Below are positions 3,340 through 30,364 of a DNA stretch of 30,364 nucleotides, piece after piece; the stretch's first letter is position 1, and every line of letters starts with the position of its first letter. This DNA is from a virus. The notes under the pieces are model-generated. The model worked only from the letters and a program-made list of their open reading frames with translations. It was not told the DNA's origin and did no database searches. The translations under genes were made by a program, and so were the position numbers. The stretch lies in the IMG/VR virus record IMGVR_UViG_3300031576_000234, positions 1 through 30,364 of that record, one strand, 5' to 3'.

Positions 3340-4497
3340 ATGGAACCAACCAAACTAACAGAGGAACAGTTGAAAGCGCTCTTGGGCCAGGCTGTAGAAG
3401 CCCGGATCAAGGAGCTCGGATTGGACCAGATCGACCGCAAATTCGGAATGTACCCGGCTCATCTTATCGGCAAGTCGCAGGAGGATCTTGCGAAGCTCGA
3501 CAAGAAGCAGAGAGTAGCGGCCTTTTTCAAGGCTGTGTACCACAGGGACGCCCCGACTTTGGCGAACTTTAAGGCGATGAATGAGGGCACCGGCTCGGCC
3601 GGAGGCTTTGTTGTCCCGGATGAGTTTGCCGCGGAAGTGAACCGCATCGTGGAGGATTTCGGACTCGTTCCGAAGCTCTCGAAGCCGTATCCGATGGGCA
3701 GCGACACGCTGCGCATCCCGCGGCTCTCGGCTTCGGTGACGGTCAGCTATCCCGGCGAAGGCGCGGCAGCGACGGCTTCACAGCCTACGCTCGCCGAGGT
3801 TCTGCTTAGCTCAAAGACTTTGGTCGGAATCACGCCGCTCACAAACGAGCTGCTTGAGGACGCCAACGTCGACCTCGTCGACTTGCTCACCGAGCTTTTC
3901 GCCGAGGCCATCGCGGGAGAGGCGGACAACCAGGGACTTGCGGGTGTCGGGACCCCTTTCACGGGGATTCTCGGGGACGCGGGGGTCTCGGTTGTTACGG
4001 CGCCGACAGGCAACTCGACTTTCGAGCTTGCCTCGACACCGGACAATCTTCGCGACTTGATCGCGCAGGTGAAGCCTTGGGCTTTGCAGGGAGCGGCTTT
4101 CGTCATGCACAGAACAGTCTGGGCGATCGTACAGAAGAAAAAGAGCTCGACCGGCGGCGACTACTTCGCCTCGGCCGCGACTCCAGTTCTCACGCCGTCC
4201 GGAGTAGTGGGCATGCCGAACGCGGTTGCGGGTACCCTTTGGGGATATCCCGTGTACCTTTCCGACAAGATGCCTTCCACAACGGCAGTTTCCACGAAGT
4301 ATATTATCTTCGGCAACCTCAGACATTTGTACTGGGGCCGCCGCAAGGATATCGGCGTGGACATTGCTCGCGAGGGCACGGTCGGAGCGGACAATCTGTT
4401 CGAGAAGAACATGAGCGCGGTGCGCGTGATGCAACGTCATGCAATCGCGGTCGGTCTTCCGGCGGCGTTTGCCGCGTTGAAAACAAGTGCTACTTGA
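3340..4497 (+). CDS. Major capsid protein, HK97 fold
   Basis: This 385-residue protein builds the icosahedral shell. An N-terminal helical segment (to about residue 75) is the expected scaffold-like delta region removed by the upstream protease. The mature core begins near GGFVVPDEFAAEV and continues with the Phage_capsid pattern SKTLVGITPLTNELLEDANVD and a TPFTGIL turn. Length is typical. I prefer ATG 3340; an in-frame TTG at 3322 overlapping the protease TGA would add six residues. Codon use is strongly GC-ending, in contrast to the AT-rich endonuclease gene that follows. Confidence 0.93.
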   Translation: MEPTKLTEEQLKALLGQAVEARIKELGLDQIDRKFGMYPAHLIGKSQEDLAKLDKKQRVAAFFKAVYHRDAPTLANFKAMNEGTGSAGGFVVPDEFAAEVNRIVEDFGLVPKLSKPYPMGSDTLRIPRLSASVTVSYPGEGAAATASQPTLAEVLLSSKTLVGITPLTNELLEDANVDLVDLLTELFAEAIAGEADNQGLAGVGTPFTGILGDAGVSVVTAPTGNSTFELASTPDNLRDLIAQVKPWALQGAAFVMHRTVWAIVQKKKSSTGGDYFASAATPVLTPSGVVGMPNAVAGTLWGYPVYLSDKMPSTTAVSTKYIIFGNLRHLYWGRRKDIGVDIAREGTVGADNLFEKNMSAVRVMQRHAIAVGLPAAFAALKTSAT

Positions 4498-4509
4498 GTT
4501 GAGTATGTA

Positions 4510-4536
4510 TTGACTCTACGATTAAGAGGGTATAAC
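4510..4536 (+). promoter_or_regulatory. Possible promoter overlapping the endonuclease hairpin
   Basis: TTGACT (4510-4515) and TATAAC (4531-4536) are separated by 15 nt, or 16 if the -35 is read as ATTGAC. The -10 ends exactly 8 nt before the ATG at 4545. RNA started here would lack the 5' arm of the hairpin at 4515-4565 and be leaderless or nearly so. The spacing is shorter than ideal. Confidence 0.4.
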
Positions 4537-4565
4537 ATGGCCCCATGGCTATACCCTCTCGTAGA
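4515..4565 (+). promoter_or_regulatory. Hairpin enclosing the start codon of the HNH gene
   Basis: TCTACGA (4515-4521) pairs with TCGTAGA (4559-4565), and GAGGGTATA (4526-4534) with TATACCCTC (4550-4558). Four unpaired bases (TTAA) bulge on the left arm. The apical region can form a further CATGG/CCATG stem (4536-4540 with 4543-4547) that contains the ATG at 4545. The start would be masked in any transcript reading in from the capsid gene. Confidence 0.7.
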
Positions 4566-5117
4566 TGTAAAATCTGCGGCAAAAGATTTTATAAATTGCT
4601 CAATACTTCAAAAATAGAATGGGAAAAATATAGACGATTTTGCTCGGTAAAATGCGCGAATAAAAATAAACTCGGCCGGATTCCTTGGAACAAAGGAAAA
4701 ATTGGGATAATGGTCGCATGGAACAAGGGCATTCCATTCAGCGAAGAAAGTCGGAGGAAAATGTCCGAAGCAAAGCGTGGAAAAAAATGGACAGAATATC
4801 AGCGCAAATCCATTATTCCTTGCTTGCTAAGAGGAATTGAGCATCCGAATTGGAGAGGAGAAAAGGTTGGCTATATGGCGCTTCATTCATGGGTGAAAAG
4901 AAACTATGGAAAAGCCACGTTTTGCGAGCGGTGCGGGATAAAATCTAAACCGAAAATCACTTCAAGAGGCAAGCCGATGAGAAGTAAAAAAAACTATTTT
5001 GAGTGGGCGAATTTGTCTGGTCAATATAAACGTGAACGAAAAGATTGGGCGCAGCTTTGTGTAAAATGTCATTCTTGGCTGGACCATGGTGGCCATATCG
5101 ATTGGAAAATGAGTTGA
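4545..5117 (+). CDS. NUMOD3/HNH homing-type endonuclease (free-standing)
   Basis: This 190-residue protein probably nicks or cleaves DNA to spread itself between related phages. It has an N-terminal zinc ribbon (C8, C11, C33, C37), NUMOD3 DNA-binding repeats at about 47-80 (PWNKGK, WNKGIPFSEESRRKMSEA), and a C-terminal HNH-like zinc domain (C127, C130, C172, C175, H176). It is AT-rich compared with the capsid genes on either side, as expected of a late arrival. It sits between the capsid gene and the next virion gene. Its ATG lies inside a strong hairpin, a classic way to limit expression of such enzymes. Confidence 0.85.
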   Translation: MAIPSRRCKICGKRFYKLLNTSKIEWEKYRRFCSVKCANKNKLGRIPWNKGKIGIMVAWNKGIPFSEESRRKMSEAKRGKKWTEYQRKSIIPCLLRGIEHPNWRGEKVGYMALHSWVKRNYGKATFCERCGIKSKPKITSRGKPMRSKKNYFEWANLSGQYKRERKDWAQLCVKCHSWLDHGGHIDWKMS

Positions 5118-16149: not shown

Positions 16150-16185
16150 AAAAATGAGTAGATTTGACTAAAAATGAGTAGATTT
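16150..16185 (+). repeat. Tandem 16-nt repeat forming two mini-ORFs
   Basis: AAAAATGAGTAGATTT occurs at 16150-16165 and again at 16170-16185, with a 20-nt period. Each copy carries an ATG opening a tiny frame, MSRFD-stop and MSRF-stop. It lies in the 59-nt gap between the peptidase and a membrane protein gene. Confidence 0.7.
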
Positions 16186-16192
16186 TAAGAAT

Positions 16193-17330: not shown

Positions 17331-17359
17331 TTGACATAATAGGCGGGATATGGTATGGT
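17331..17359 (+). promoter_or_regulatory. Strong sigma70-like early promoter
   Basis: Perfect -35 TTGACA (17331-17336), exactly 17 nt, and -10 TATGGT (17354-17359, 4 of 6). This is the only full -35/-10 pair of this quality in the window. It precedes the run of small early genes. Transcription should begin at about 17366. Confidence 0.8.
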
Positions 17360-17379
17360 GGTAACGTAAAAATTAAGCA

Positions 17380-17445
17380 GTGACCGATTGCCCGGTTGCG
17401 GATAGTTTGATGATTCCGGGCATTGGCGCCGGAATTTTTTTATGA
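17380..17445 (+). CDS. Possible 21-codon leader peptide
   Basis: GTG at 17380 opens a 21-residue frame (MTDCPVADSLMIPGIGAGIFL) that runs through both leader hairpins and ends in a TGA overlapping the next ATG (ATGA at 17442-17445). It starts about 14 nt after the predicted transcription start. There is no clear Shine-Dalgarno, so it may be a chance frame; if translated it would couple ribosome movement to the attenuator. Confidence 0.3.
   Translation: MTDCPVADSLMIPGIGAGIFL
17389..17422 (+). promoter_or_regulatory. Antiterminator hairpin in early leader
   Basis: TGCCCGG (17389-17395) pairs perfectly with CCGGGCA (17416-17422). Further pairs outside are possible after one mismatch. The right arm shares 17416-17419 with the left arm of the downstream terminator, so the two structures exclude each other. 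Confidence 0.6.
17413..17441 (+). terminator. Leader terminator (attenuator) before the first early gene
   Basis: ATTCCGG (17413-17419) and CCGGAAT (17429-17435) form a perfect 7-bp stem with a 9-nt loop. Seven Ts (17435-17441) run directly into the ATG at 17442. This is a textbook intrinsic terminator placed in a 5' leader. Confidence 0.75.
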
Positions 17446-17951: not shown

Positions 17952-18262
17952 GCTGCAGGGAAACGATTGAAAAAAACGACTCTATAAAAAGCGATGAGAC
18001 CTGGATCGTGGAGATCCGGAGCGAGAGGGACGGGCGCATTGTAGTCAGCCACGGGAATGTTCAGGGAGGATTTTTTATCGTGCACAAAAAGGGCGATGGC
18101 GATATGGGAGGTATGGGAGGCACCAATCAGGGCGTGTTCGGCACGGCACCATCGATCGGGGTGTGCCTTTTTAAGGCGCCCGAGCAGTTGGAGCGCATGG
18201 CCATTAAAATCGGAGTACATGATGCGATAAAAAAGACGAGGGAGATGATGGAGAAACTTTGA
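17948..18262 (+). CDS. Hypothetical early protein with Gly/Met-rich loop
   Basis: This 104-residue protein has a beta start (TWIVEIRSERDGRIVVSHG), a GDGDMGGMGGTNQG loop and a C-terminal helix (APEQLERMAIKIGVHDAIKK). Soluble, without known motifs. Its start is coupled to the upstream gene by ATGA. Confidence 0.65.
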   Translation: MSCRETIEKNDSIKSDETWIVEIRSERDGRIVVSHGNVQGGFFIVHKKGDGDMGGMGGTNQGVFGTAPSIGVCLFKAPEQLERMAIKIGVHDAIKKTREMMEKL

Positions 18263-18264
18263 GT

Positions 18265-18657
18265 ATGAGGTACCAAAAAGATTTTTCCGCTCCGATTGAA
18301 AAACGCTTCTATGCGCTGGGAATATCAGTGCGGGCGTTTAGCGATCATTTTGGATTTGGAGATACTTATTTGAGGCTTTTGTTCCGTGGCGGGGCCGTTG
18401 CTTCTCCAAAGTTTTTTTCCAAGCTGATCGCAGCCATATTAAAAGTTGAGCGCTGGCCCTACCTAGCTTCAAAACTCCGTGCAATTACTGCAAAAGACAG
18501 GAGTTTGTGGGCCAGGGGAGAAGCGGCGCGAGTTAGAGATCGGCAGATGATTAAGATGCGGAAAACCGGCGCTAAGCTGCACGAGATTGGAAAGATTTAT
18601 GGCATATCCAAGCAGAGAGTCCAGGCAATAGTTTCCGAATATGAAAAAAACCGATAA
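18265..18657 (+). CDS. HTH-containing early protein
   Basis: This 130-residue basic protein has a C-terminal helix-turn-helix resembling sigma region 4 or resolvase-type HTH (MIKMRKTGAKLHEIGKIYG, then ISKQRVQAIVSEYEK). The N-terminal region (LGISVRAFSDHFGFGDTYLRLLF) might be a second HTH. A TTG at 18259, overlapping the previous stop and better spaced from GGAG, is the alternative start. A transcriptional role is inferred. Confidence 0.7.
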   Translation: MRYQKDFSAPIEKRFYALGISVRAFSDHFGFGDTYLRLLFRGGAVASPKFFSKLIAAILKVERWPYLASKLRAITAKDRSLWARGEAARVRDRQMIKMRKTGAKLHEIGKIYGISKQRVQAIVSEYEKNR

Positions 18658-18844
18658 GCTGACAAAAAGGCAGGTACTTGCGATTCCCGGCCTCGTAAAT
18701 AAGAGGGGCTGGAGCGTCGGCGCCGTGGCGGGATTTTACGGGGTGAGCTGGCAGGCGGTCTGGTACTGGGTAAAGCAGCTGCGGCGGCGCGGTTTTGAAA
18801 TCAGGACCCGGAAAAAAGGGTCTCGGTCTCTGCTGGATTCATGA
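18641..18844 (+). CDS. Small HTH protein (transposase-like fold)
   Basis: This 67-residue basic protein overlaps the previous gene by 17 nt. WSVGAVAGFYGVSWQAVWYW with VKQLRRRGFEI is a helix-turn-helix of the kind seen in transposase N-termini and small regulators. There is no further domain, so it is probably a DNA-binding regulator. Confidence 0.65.
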   Translation: MKKTDKLTKRQVLAIPGLVNKRGWSVGAVAGFYGVSWQAVWYWVKQLRRRGFEIRTRKKGSRSLLDS

Positions 18845-19067: not shown

Positions 19068-19096
19068 AAAACCACCGAAGATAATTCGGCGGGTGG
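19065..19096 (-). terminator. Possible terminator for - strand transcripts
   Basis: CCGAA (19075-19079) pairs with TTCGG (19085-19089), and CCACC (19072-19076) can alternatively pair with GGTGG (19092-19096). On the - strand the stem is followed by six Ts. It would stop antisense RNA entering the early genes from the origin region. Confidence 0.35.
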
Positions 19097-19097
19097 G

Positions 19098-19198
19098 AAA
19101 AAATAAAGCTAAATTTTAAATTTTGGTGGGACTTTTATCACCTAGGTTTAATTGGTTGTGGACAGGTCGGGGCATGGATTGTGGACTTGTGGATAACT
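19098..19198. other. Candidate replication origin (DnaA boxes plus AT-rich tract)
   Basis: Three TTGTGGA elements lie within 42 nt of non-coding DNA: TTGTGGACA (19156), TTGTGGACT (19079+100, i.e. 19179) and TTGTGGATAAC (19187). The last contains TGTGGATAA (19188-19196), the exact complement of the bacterial DnaA box TTATCCACA. The first two match at 7 of 9 or so. An A/T-only-rich tract (19098-19124) lies beside them as a possible unwinding element. No phage replication initiator or helicase is seen. Confidence 0.55.
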
Positions 19199-19204
19199 GC
19201 GGCG

Positions 19205-19233
19205 TTGACTTTACTTTTTAGGGCTGGCATGAT
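19205..19233 (+). promoter_or_regulatory. Promoter of the structured RNA
   Basis: TTGACT (19205-19210, 5 of 6), a 17-nt spacer, and an extended -10: TGG (19225-19227) then CATGAT (19228-19233, 4 of 6). The expected start at about 19240 coincides with the first base of the RNA's closing stem. Confidence 0.6.
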
Positions 19234-19239
19234 AGGGTT

Positions 19240-19346
19240 GTTATGTTAAAAGGATTCTCAAAAAGTCGATCGACATTTGGAGAGTACCGTGGAAACACGG
19301 ACTTTTACATAACTCAAATACCGACGGCGTAAGCTGGCGGTTTTTT
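19240..19346 (+). ncRNA. Compact structured small RNA, about 107 nt
   Basis: The transcript folds by eye into a three-way junction. P1: 19240-19252 with 19302-19313, 12 pairs and one bulged T. P2: TCTCAAA (19256-19262) with TTT-G-GAGA (19276-19283), capped by the palindrome GTCGATCGAC. P3: CCGTG-GAAA-CACGG (19287-19300), a perfect stem with a GNRA loop. A terminator hairpin follows. No ORF of any size fits. I recognise no known RNA family. It lies beside the DnaA boxes, so a replication or copy-control role is possible; regulation of host or early mRNAs is the alternative. Confidence 0.65.
19320..19346 (+). terminator. Intrinsic terminator of the small RNA
   Basis: ACCGACGGC (19320-19328), GTAA loop, GCTGGCGGT (19333-19341), then T run to 19346. 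The stem has one A-G mismatch and one G-U pair. This is the clearest stand-alone intrinsic terminator in the window. Confidence 0.8.
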
Positions 19347-19640
19347 GATTGAAAAAAAGGGCAGGATCATGGGGATATTCCACGATGGCCGCGCGCTATG
19401 GGAATTAAGGACGTACGCGGCAACCGCTGACACCTAAAAAATTAAGCGCAAAGCGAAAAGTATCCGGCTCGATGGCCAAGGCTGTCGGCTAGGAGCGCCC
19501 CCGGTAAAGTGTCGCCGTGGCGGGGAAGTAGCCCAGCTCGCTTAAATAGATTCCTTCCGAAAGGAAACCCGAATAAGGGAATGAAGCCGGCCTATTTAAT
19601 TTTTTGTTTTTTTGCCCGATTTCAATCAGGGTTAATGGAA
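19347..19640. other. Second structured, gene-free stretch
   Basis: No convincing gene; the longest sensible frame is 22 codons from ATG 19369. Candidate stems include ATCATGG/CCACGAT (19366-19386, one mismatch), GCCGCG/CGCGGC (19388-19421), GCTC-TGGCC/GGCTA-GAGC (19467-19496), CCCCG/CGGGG (19499-19525) and TTCCTT-CCGA-AAGGAA (19551-19566). A T-rich tract follows at 19598-19613. It could be a second, larger RNA or the leader of the gene at 19646. No clear promoter was seen within it. Confidence 0.4.
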
Positions 19641-19645
19641 TTTCT

Positions 19646-19951
19646 ATGTCAAAAATTGATTTTCCACGAAGGCGAAAACACGGGAGTGAGGCGATAAACT
19701 GGTTGCTTGATTACATGGAGTTTCGATTGGAGCTTCGGCGTCTTGACGACACTGAGAAAACAAACAGACTCTATACTATGCATGCGATAAAAAAGCATGG
19801 GGCGGCGACGGTCAGGCAGATGATAGACGCCGCCGCGGAATCGGAGTTTTGGCGGACGCGCGTCACTTGTATGCGGACGATCTACTACAAGGGCGTTCAA
19901 ATACTTTCCTCCGTGGTTAGGGGCGGAATTAAAAGGGAACGAATATCTTGA
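19646..19951 (+). CDS. Possible replisome-organiser-like protein
   Basis: This 101-residue, basic, helical protein is the first gene after the candidate origin. Its C-terminal part (ATVRQMIDAAAESEFWRTRV followed by YYKGVQILSS) recalls the C-terminal tail of phage replisome organisers, which typically read xxxIxxAxxdxFWrxxilSxxxLxxxfdxL. The match is partial and the usual N-terminal winged helix is absent. A helicase-loader or initiator role fits the position but is inference. ATG 19646 has GGAA 6 nt upstream. Confidence 0.5.
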   Translation: MSKIDFPRRRKHGSEAINWLLDYMEFRLELRRLDDTEKTNRLYTMHAIKKHGAATVRQMIDAAAESEFWRTRVTCMRTIYYKGVQILSSVVRGGIKRERIS

Positions 19952-21020: not shown

Positions 21021-21102
21021 GGTCTTGCCGGAGCTCAAAAGGGCTTCACTGTCGGGTCGAGCAGTTATTAAAAAATTATTCAATTCAAAGGTTTATGACT
21101 GA
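20989..21102 (+). pseudogene. C-terminal fragment of the gene split by the HNH gene
   Basis: This frame, different from that of the endonuclease, reads RILICGEIYGKVLPELKR, then ASLSGRAVIKKLF and ends at TGA 21100-21102, overlapping the next gene's start at 21095. It has no start codon and looks like the true tail of the fragment at 20413-20508. The left edge is uncertain. Confidence 0.45.
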
Positions 21103-22285
21103 TAAATTCAAGAACGAGATCGACGCGACTGACGGATTTTTCGCGCCGATAGGCAACGCCAAGCCGTGGTTCAAGATGAACCTGTTTGGATTCGCGGGAT
21201 CCGGCAAATCGTACACGGCGGCATTGACGGCCGTAGGATTGCATCAGCGGATCAAATCGCAGAAGCCGGTGATCATGTTCGACACCGAGACGAGCTCTAA
21301 GTTTCTCAAGCCGATGTTCGAGGCGGCGGGGATAGCGGTGCTGGTGAGAGAGAGCCGATCGTTGGCAGATCTCAAGGAGACGATGAAACGATGCCGGGAA
21401 GGGTTATCCGACATCTTGCTCGTCGACTCGCTGTCGCACGTCTGGGAGTCATTCCTGGAGGCCTACAAGCAGGCGCCGACGAAATACGGGAGGGGAGCAA
21501 AGACGCGATTGGAGTTCCAGGATTGGGGAATCATAAAGCCGACATGGAAGGCCGAGTTTTCCGACCCGTTCGTGCGCGATCCGGTGCACATGATAGTCAC
21601 TGGCCGCGCCGGGTATGAGTACGAGAACGAGATCAACAAGGACACCGGCAAGCGTGAGATATTCAAGTCGGGAGTTAAAGAAAAAGTGGAAGGGGAAACT
21701 GCTTACGAATCCGATCTGCTGGTTCTCATGGAGCGATTGCAGGAGATGGAGGGCGGGGAGATCAAGCGGGTCATGCGCAGGGCAGTGGTCATCAAGGACC
21801 GATCGACGCTCCTGGACGGCAAGACGTTCGAGAACCCGGCATTCGAGGATTTCGCCCCTGCGGTGGATATCATCCTCAAAGATCCGATCAAGCGCGAGCA
21901 GACCGCGGAGCTGGATGCAGCCGAGTTGGTCAAAGTTGAGGACGGCAGGCGCGAATGGGTCAGGCGCAAGGACATCGCGTTGGAGAAGATCGAGGCCTAT
22001 CTGGTCGCGGTATGGCCCGGGCAGACCTCCGAGATGAAGCAACTCAAGGTCGGGGCGCTCGAGAGCGCGTTCGGCACGCCGAGCTGGACGGAGATATCCG
22101 GCATGAAACCGGAGACGCTGGAGGCGGGACTCACGAAGCTGCACGAGTTCGTGGAAAAGATCATCGCCTCGAAAAAGGTCGCGGAAGCAGAGGCGGAGGA
22201 ATCACCGGCCAAAAAGGCAATGAAAGCGGGAATAGCCAAGGGCAAGGCGGCTTTCGAGGCCGAAAAGGAAAAGATGAGTGCTTAA
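21095..22285 (+). CDS. RecA/Sak4-like AAA ATPase
   Basis: This 396-residue protein has Walker A GFAGSGKS (32-39), Walker B-like DILLVDS (106-112) and the general layout of phage nucleotide-binding proteins of the Sak4/AAA_24 type, which bind single-stranded DNA and promote annealing or recombination. The C-terminal ~120 residues are helical and charged, ending in an Ala/Lys/Glu tail. AAAGG lies before ATG 21095. It is the only clear recombination or replication ATPase in the genome. Confidence 0.8.
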   Translation: MTDKFKNEIDATDGFFAPIGNAKPWFKMNLFGFAGSGKSYTAALTAVGLHQRIKSQKPVIMFDTETSSKFLKPMFEAAGIAVLVRESRSLADLKETMKRCREGLSDILLVDSLSHVWESFLEAYKQAPTKYGRGAKTRLEFQDWGIIKPTWKAEFSDPFVRDPVHMIVTGRAGYEYENEINKDTGKREIFKSGVKEKVEGETAYESDLLVLMERLQEMEGGEIKRVMRRAVVIKDRSTLLDGKTFENPAFEDFAPAVDIILKDPIKREQTAELDAAELVKVEDGRREWVRRKDIALEKIEAYLVAVWPGQTSEMKQLKVGALESAFGTPSWTEISGMKPETLEAGLTKLHEFVEKIIASKKVAEAEAEESPAKKAMKAGIAKGKAAFEAEKEKMSA

Positions 22286-24519: not shown

Positions 24520-24780
24520 ATGCAGATAACGGCCGCGCAAAAATGGAGGCTGGGGGAGATAGTCAAGGACTTGGAGAGCGTCGGATCCAGGCCGCAGGAC
24601 AAGGTCATCATCGAGAAGTTCGGCGAGGAGGCCATCGGATGCGCGAATATGTTTTTGAGGGCGATCATGGCTGGCATGGCTTCAAAGGGAAAAAGCGTAG
24701 CAAGCGCGATCATTGGGGACTGGCATGAGGGAGGAATCACGGCGGTGATATTAAATGTAAAGGAGAGAAAATATGGATAA
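24520..24780 (+). CDS. Hypothetical early protein
   Basis: This 86-residue helical protein (AAQKWRLGEIVKDLESVG, ANMFLRAIMAGMASKG) starts 1 nt after the previous stop and overlaps the ParB-domain gene by 8 nt. No motif recognised. Confidence 0.55.
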   Translation: MQITAAQKWRLGEIVKDLESVGSRPQDKVIIEKFGEEAIGCANMFLRAIMAGMASKGKSVASAIIGDWHEGGITAVILNVKERKYG

Positions 24781-25000
24781 ACTTTTTTGGAAAACCGAGA
24801 AGCGGAGGGTGAACGAATTGGTCCCGTTTGAGCAAAATCCTCGCCAAATGGGAACGCGCGAGGCAGAGCTTTTGAAAAAATCGCTGCAGGATTTCGACTT
24901 GGTGGAGATTCCGGCCGTTGACGCCGACAACAAAATCATCGCCGGGCATCAGCGTCTCAAGGCCATGCAGCTTCTGGGCCGGGGCGAGGAGGGGTTTTGA
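24773..25000 (+). CDS. ParB N-terminal domain, truncated
   Basis: This 75-residue protein is a ParB/Srx-type N-terminal domain: VNELVPFEQNPRQM (13-26), VEIPAVDADNKIIAGHQRLK (44-63), then LLGRGEE. In phages this domain usually continues into a DNA methyltransferase. Here it stops right after GRGEEGF. The bases at and beyond the stop read, in a shifted frame, GFEDLRGG, a segment of C5 methyltransferases, so the gene looks cut and joined to the remnant downstream. Confidence 0.75.
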   Translation: MDKLFWKTEKRRVNELVPFEQNPRQMGTREAELLKKSLQDFDLVEIPAVDADNKIIAGHQRLKAMQLLGRGEEGF

Positions 25001-25015
25001 GGACCTGCGCGGAGG

Positions 25016-25636
25016 ATGATTTTCAGGATTGCGAGGATTTTGGAGGCCAAGAGGCCGGAGTTTGCAGTGCTGGAGAATGTCAAAGGGATATTGAACCACG
25101 ATGGTGGAAAGACGGTTAGGAGCGTGTTTGCGCTTCTGACTTCAAAAAAGTATTTCGTCAGGATGGTGCTGCTCAATTCGGCGCATTACGGGTCGGCACA
25201 AAGCCGCGAAAGGGTGTTATTCCTGTGCTCGAGGAGTGATTTTTCGGAAAAAAATCCGGTGGTTGTCGACGATACAAAAAGATTCAGGGACGTCAGGCAA
25301 GATTTTGGGCCGTTCAAGACTATAAAAGACGACGAGAGAAACCGCCTTAAATTGGAGCAAAAAAGGGGCTCGTTTAATTTCGAGCTGGTTGGCGGTTGGG
25401 ACAGGGTCGGAACGCTCACGACGCAGGCGGGTTGCGGGGAGAAGGCGGCGCAGGAGAGGGATGGGACGTGGAGAATGCTGACGCCCCTCGAGTGCGAGAG
25501 GCTGCAGGGGTTTCCCGACGGATGGACGGCGGGAGCCCCGGATTCGGCGAGGTATTTTGCGCTCGGAAACGCGGTTAACTGCAGGATGAGCAGCTATCTG
25601 TTTGGAAACTATCTCAAGGGGGTTTGGTGGAAATAA
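25016..25636 (+). pseudogene. C5-cytosine DNA methyltransferase, C-terminal half only
   Basis: The 206-residue frame holds the later C5-methyltransferase motifs: ENVKG (20-24, motif VI), QSRERV (62-67, motif VIII), a target-recognition stretch (about 100-150), LTPLECERLQGFP (155-167, motif IX) and ALGNAV (182-187, motif X). The cofactor-binding motif I (FxGxG) and the catalytic PC motif are absent. Activity is therefore not expected unless another protein supplies the first half. The reading frame is the same as that of the upstream ParB fragment. Confidence 0.8.
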
Positions 25637-30041: not shown

Positions 30042-30326
30042 ATGAGCGGACGTTTCAAAGGAGAAAAAAGAAAAAGGACACCATGTTATCGAGGATGGCG
30101 CTGGGATGAGACCAAAAAAGAAATCATAAAGAGAGACGGTTTGCGGTGCGTGGAGTGCGGGATGAACCAAACCGAGCATTTGATTAAAACAGGGCAACCG
30201 CTTCAGGTTGATCACATACTTGCTTACAATGTTTCTCGGAATAACAATCCTGAAAATCTACAAACTCTTTGTGCATATTGCCATGGAGCTAAGCAAAAAA
30301 TAGATATTGAATTTTGCCCATTATGA
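30042..30326 (+). CDS. HNH endonuclease domain (C-terminal part of broken gene)
   Basis: This 94-residue HNH protein has C36/C39 (CVEC), LQVDHI (His58), NNPENLQTLCAYCHGAK (C77, C80, H81). ATG 30042 is the first ATG; TTG 30027 in the same frame is possible. Alone it would be a minimal HNH nuclease lacking the usual DNA-binding modules. The end overlaps the next gene as ATGA (30323-30326, equal to 86-89). Confidence 0.8.
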   Translation: MSGRFKGEKRKRTPCYRGWRWDETKKEIIKRDGLRCVECGMNQTEHLIKTGQPLQVDHILAYNVSRNNNPENLQTLCAYCHGAKQKIDIEFCPL

Positions 30327-30364
30327 CCGATGAAAAAGAAAAATCACTCCGCCGAGCGATTAAG
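30238..30364. repeat. Terminal direct repeat, right copy (contig closure)
   Basis: Identical to bases 1-127. It contains the 3' end of the HNH gene and the first 14 codons of the structural gene that continues at 86. Confidence 0.95.

Follow-up and report, generated by a model that had tools for sequence, protein, structure and literature searches.

In bacteriophage lambda, ori is activated by transcription, and DnaA binds to sites next to pO, the promoter proximal to ori (PMC3985674). The put RNAs of HK022, about 70 nt in length with two stem-loops and with putL located just downstream of PL, allow early-gene terminators to be read through (PMC9378689). Here we analyzed a viral DNA of 30,364 nt (the window), for which an original prediction had proposed a replication origin using host DnaA.

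An exact 127-bp repeat is present at the termini (1-127 = 30238-30364), and the window therefore represents a complete genome of 30,237 bp, either circular or circularly permuted. Nearly all genes are on the + strand, encoding terminase, portal, protease, capsid, tail and tape-measure proteins, complemented by a Sak4-like AAA_24 ATPase, a NinG-like nuclease and several HNH nucleases. HNH homing-type endonuclease genes are found at 4545, 14532 (- strand), 20532 (with an AP2 domain) and 30027, and at 24773-25636 a ParB-like domain ORF is separate from a DNA methyltransferase ORF, the two being fused in relatives. The expected lack of a polymerase, primase or replicative helicase held for every ORF scanned (a few small ORFs were left out), and no tyrosine integrase was found in the complete genome.

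Relatives of the ATPase were recovered at 23 genome loci, and all loci with a named group belong to Patescibacteria, Uhrbacteria being closest with 68-71% identity, thereby placing the virus among the phages of these ultra-small bacteria. A dnaA gene with a box-binding domain is present in four CPR (Patescibacteria) genomes examined, with DnaA boxes near dnaA. Related prophages adjoin the ends of host genes for GAPDH (L014), secA (L112 and L129) and tRNA-Lys (L018), with names read from sequence; these gene ends are apparent attachment sites, suggesting that the relatives are temperate phages.

The proposed origin resides in a gap of 578 nt (19068-19645), the largest non-coding gap in the genome and devoid of a credible ORF. 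The features of the gap and its surroundings are the following:

18259-18657, + strand: regulator-like protein with a C-terminal HTH (HTH_23 2.6e-5 and Sigma70_r4 3e-4, both just under the curated cut-offs)
18641-18844, + strand: small HTH protein with a weak match (E 0.0038) to phrog_19658, a phage replication initiation family
19072-19092, - strand: terminator-like hairpin with a TTTTTT tail at the end of the upstream ORF, from sequence pattern
19098-19150, strand not applicable: AT-rich tract, candidate DNA unwinding element, from composition
19156-19162, + strand: element 1, TTGTGGA, a partial DnaA box with the TCCACA core on the - strand
19179-19185, + strand: element 2, TTGTGGA, a partial DnaA box
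19187-19196, + strand: element 3, TTGTGGATAA, holding the exact box TTATCCACA on the - strand (19196-19188)
19205-19233, + strand: sigma70-like promoter, TTGACT-17-CATGAT with TG before the -10, a consensus match only
19240-19346, + strand: candidate structured RNA of ~107 nt, from its predicted fold
19321-19346, + strand: intrinsic terminator CCGACGGC-GUAA-GCUGGCGG UUUUUU closing the RNA, from sequence and fold
19355-19645, strand not applicable: remaining non-coding stretch, with no Rfam match
19646-19951, + strand: 101-aa ORF likened in the original prediction to replisome organisers, with no homologue found
21095-22285, + strand: AAA_24 / Sak4-like ATPase, the marker used for finding relatives

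Congruent with the original prediction, three TTGTGGA copies are present in non-coding DNA (19156-19162, 19179-19185 and 19187-19193, all + strand), and one coincides with an exact DnaA box, as the 9-mer TTATCCACA on the - strand at 19188-19196 includes part of the third copy. The cluster is indeed tight, with a span of 38-41 nt depending on counting rather than the 42 nt given. The full box is confined to one of the three elements, the other two (CTGTCCACA and AAGTCCACA, - strand) sharing the TCCACA core alone, and all three face the same way at uneven spacings of 23 and 8 nt. Exact DnaA 9-mers are also found at 2674, 5428 and 7069, each within coding sequence.

Three TTGTGGA within 45 nt were recovered in 0 of 300 dinucleotide shuffles of the whole genome, and at least three copies in 1 of 20,000 shuffles of the 19068-19645 gap. 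Moreover, the sole 7-mers with three copies in 40 nt genome-wide are AAAATAA, which is simple, and TTGTGGA/TCCACAA. Because of the shuffle tests and the all-7-mer test, the cluster of one exact and two partial boxes is beyond chance expectation; a functionless chance cluster, for which the single full box and the relatives without boxes at this position would speak, is contradicted by these tests and very improbable. The doublet TTGTGGA-NN-TGTGGATAA was detected in 77 viral contigs, 35 of which carry it in non-coding DNA, while a control search with the pattern reversed gave 11; thus, such DnaA doublets recur in phages.

Alternatively, a phage protein, such as the HTH protein encoded at 18641, may use the repeats as iterons, with the DnaA-box likeness arising by chance. 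Elements 1 and 2 do match over 13 nt (ATTGGTTGTGGAC / ATGGATTGTGGAC), and the small HTH protein with its weak initiator match is encoded 0.3 kb upstream. One copy is however an exact DnaA box, and three unevenly spaced copies are few for such an array, leaving this explanation with little credence. Iterons, as in the lambda-type O origin, were not found at the box region.

On their left, the boxes adjoin the AT-rich tract that had been predicted beside them, with the 30-nt segment at 19098 reaching 87% AT, among the highest in the genome, and the tract is a candidate for unwinding. In the E. coli oriC, the DNA unwinding element lies on that same side relative to the TGTGGATAA boxes.

Two checks put forward with the original prediction, a GC-skew minimum at the boxes and conservation of the boxes in relatives, did not point to this site. 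The detrended skew minimum is located at 14.8 kb; the skew mainly reflects gene direction and module, the third-codon skew merely splits the structural from the early block, and the test has little power since nearly all genes are on the + strand. Boxes are absent at this position in relatives, among which no close relative of the region was found, and the box pair of relatives instead sits after the ATPase gene. Similarly, blastn searches with the gap sequence yielded only short chance-level matches in phages and CPR genomes, and the nearest Uhrbacteria prophages are without a matching region. DnaA-like clusters upstream of the ATPase in three relatives (L122, L125 and L129) were considered as support and dropped, because two coincide with, or lie close to, terminator hairpins that follow ribosomal protein genes of the host, the third being located at a host/phage junction.

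The suggested replisome-organiser resemblance of the 19646 ORF gained no support, without being refuted: no match was obtained in PHROGs, Pfam, NCBIfam, PDB sequences, phage tblastn or 379 CPR genomes, including to replisome organiser or DnaD-like loader families. Alignment by hhalign to the C-terminal domain of the long O proteins of relatives gave a probability of 0.4%, and the alignment-free AF2 model (pLDDT 51) is too weak to judge.

Directly downstream of the boxes, the original prediction missed a promoter, a structured RNA and a terminator. The gap between the final box and the -35 of the 19205 promoter is 8 nt, and transcription is predicted to start at about 19240, where base pairing in the RNA begins. 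The predicted layout of the RNA is a three-way junction with two hairpins followed by the intrinsic terminator: a closing helix (GUUAUGU-AAAAG/CUUUUACAUAAC) encloses a long hairpin with the palindromic GUCGAUCGAC and then the hairpin CCGUG-GAAA-CACGG. The fold of 19235-19355 reaches -40.3 kcal/mol (z -5.3), with 0 of 200 shuffles as stable, and the region ranks fifth of 1096 windows in a coarse genome-wide fold scan. Rfam covariance models gave no match to the gap or the RNA, the RNA model (R1) returned no homologue in relatives or the 379 CPR genomes, and for pairing with gene starts the energies are alike for many genes, so that no target stands out. The stretch 19355-19645 was rejected as a second RNA, its fold being no better than shuffles (z 0.35).

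Further elements are found elsewhere. At 17331-17441, a TTGACA-17-TATGGT promoter with TG, an RNA of about 75 nt and a strong terminator (TTCCGGGCATTGGCGCCGGAATTTTTTT) form a second promoter/short RNA/terminator module, which precedes the 17.4-kb genes. At 16150-16189, a 20-nt direct tandem repeat (AAAAATGAGTAGATTT) occupies a non-coding gap with a promoter-like site, and no local fold in the genome is more stable, on either strand, than that at 4456-4620, right after the capsid gene. In the relative L010, a very stable hairpin RNA/terminator (950-1046, z -7.1) occupies a non-coding gap that precedes a GAPDH-like attachment sequence, with an HTH gene on one side and the ATPase on the other.

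The proximity of boxes and promoter raises the question of transcriptional control. Here, the boxes would be an operator through which host DnaA controls the 19205 promoter, driving either the 107-nt RNA or a read-through leader of the downstream replication/packaging genes, while replication would start at another place, through recombination or an unrecognised initiator, for instance. The 8-nt distance to the -35, the coincidence of predicted start and first paired base, and the module of the same layout ahead of the 17.4-kb genes are all congruent with such a role, as are the lambdoid early-gene terminators read through by HK022 put RNAs (PMC9378689); by analogy, the latter would be the nearest known case for a DnaA-regulated, attenuated leader. 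An operator however needs no AT-rich tract, no put-like sequence similarity is apparent and Rfam is without a match, and the phage group clearly appears to use DnaA boxes at origins. We consider the operator possible, yet rather unlikely.

The structured RNA may instead itself prime or control replication without an initiator protein, perhaps together with a leftward transcript, as in ColE1 or cluster A mycobacteriophages, and the phage may then persist as a plasmid. The - strand hairpin at 19092-19072 hints at a leftward transcript ending there. The complete genome without a recognised initiator or tyrosine integrase, and the short folded RNA and opposite-strand terminator sharing one gap, are in agreement with such an origin, and repA-less prophages replicate via a region expressing a non-coding RNA (PMC7157519). 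Of the opposing RNA pair, however, the - strand terminator is present while the promoter scan found no leftward promoter, at least no convincing one reaching over the RNA, and a partition system is missing besides the ParB-like domain, which is methyltransferase-linked in relatives. Such systems, moreover, do not require DnaA boxes, and we judge an RNA-based origin to be unlikely.

Relatives shed further light on the use of DnaA in this group. In many, a lambda O-type initiator gene directly follows the ATPase; PF04492 (Phage_rep_O) scores above cut-off in three of them (L012, L133 and L143), 'replication initiation O-like' PHROGs also match, and an O-family profile identified 31 distinct proteins in relatives. 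Searching the window with this profile recovered no Phage_rep_O member; the O gene is absent, and the box cluster is upstream of the ATPase rather than after it. Counted in 500-nt bins from the ATPase start, strict DnaA boxes in relatives amount to 1.16 per kb at 1.5-2.0 kb, compared to about 0.05 in most other bins. In four relatives (L012, L128, L133 and L150), two TGTGGATAA boxes are separated by 135-147 nt inside the O gene, with about four imperfect palindromic iteron-like repeats and an A-rich stretch between them. L118 and others also carry an O gene with iteron-like palindromes between two DnaA boxes.

The box codons in the O genes encode VDK and PVDN. Within these genes, VD[KN] is spelled GTG GAT AA in 32 of 34 instances, as opposed to 15 of 69 elsewhere (P = 6e-13, a value that overstates the significance since related sequences are not independent). 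This bias goes beyond the demands of the protein, and the boxes in the O genes are therefore kept at the DNA level, which in turn makes host-DnaA use a trait of the group. The relatives thereby support a use of DnaA boxes at the origins of this group.

Aggregated, we tentatively favor, at close to even confidence, a reading of 19098-19346 as a control region to which DnaA binds and as the likeliest site for replication of this Patescibacteria phage to begin. The non-random cluster is located in non-coding DNA next to an AT-rich tract, and is followed by a predicted stable fold with a terminator. We infer that host DnaA, anchored at the exact box, would occupy all three same-facing boxes including the two weak ones alongside, and that bound DnaA would open the AT-rich stretch on their left. 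The promoter on the right would fire the short, terminated, structured RNA, and initiation would thereby be coupled to transcription, which may aid opening, as at the lambda ori. Of the original prediction, dependence on host DnaA is supported by the box cluster and the phage group, and an origin at this very place is plausible. Speaking against an origin, the boxes are not at the same place as in relatives, two of the three are partial, iterons are lacking and the skew minimum is remote; boxes directly upstream of a promoter would be just as likely if DnaA served as a transcription factor, and no homologue was found for either the RNA or the neighboring 19646 ORF. It is also conceivable, although unlikely, that the O-type initiator of the group was lost in this phage, which starts with host DnaA alone and a dedicated structured RNA of a new family, acting in initiation or copy control from a promoter abutting the boxes.

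To our knowledge, replication studies on Patescibacteria phages are few. DnaA is unmentioned in the Patescibacteria-phage papers PMC12911398 and PMC13059738. With a conserved pair of DnaA boxes enclosing lambda-type iterons, the O genes provide many uncultured phages with a direct origin model that can be tested, and the window illustrates how a group member may manage without the O gene. Should the RNA take part in initiation, it would add a second case, unrelated to the first, of a phage origin linked to RNA.

How does the locus compare with known systems? Cluster A mycobacteriophage prophages (RedRock, Alma and LadyBird) resemble the window in having no recognised initiator, no integrase found and a non-coding RNA region, but there the need for the region was shown by RNA-seq and deletion (PMC7157519), whereas the RNA of the window is predicted and parABS is missing. 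The HK022 put leader similarly has a short stem-loop RNA right after a promoter with terminators downstream; the RNA of the window however forms a three-way junction met at once by a terminator, with no sequence relation shown. In common with an E. coli-type oriC, the candidate has non-coding DnaA boxes next to an AT-rich tract, which lies to the left of TGTGGATAA, yet it has one exact box only and no dnaA gene. The O-gene origins of relatives (L012, L133, L150, L128 and others) share with the window the phage group, a syntenic ATPase, exact TGTGGATAA boxes and an expected use of host machinery, but their boxes flank iteron-like palindromes inside a Phage_rep_O gene, while those of the window are upstream of the ATPase; their layout corresponds to that of the lambda ori with DnaA boxes added. 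In lambda itself, oop runs opposite to the genes, whereas the RNA of the window points the same way as the genes, and the window has neither an O gene nor iterons. Both nevertheless have regulators upstream and replication genes downstream, and in both, DnaA-box-like sites are positioned by a promoter near replication genes, together with a short non-coding RNA (oop in lambda) (PMC3985674).
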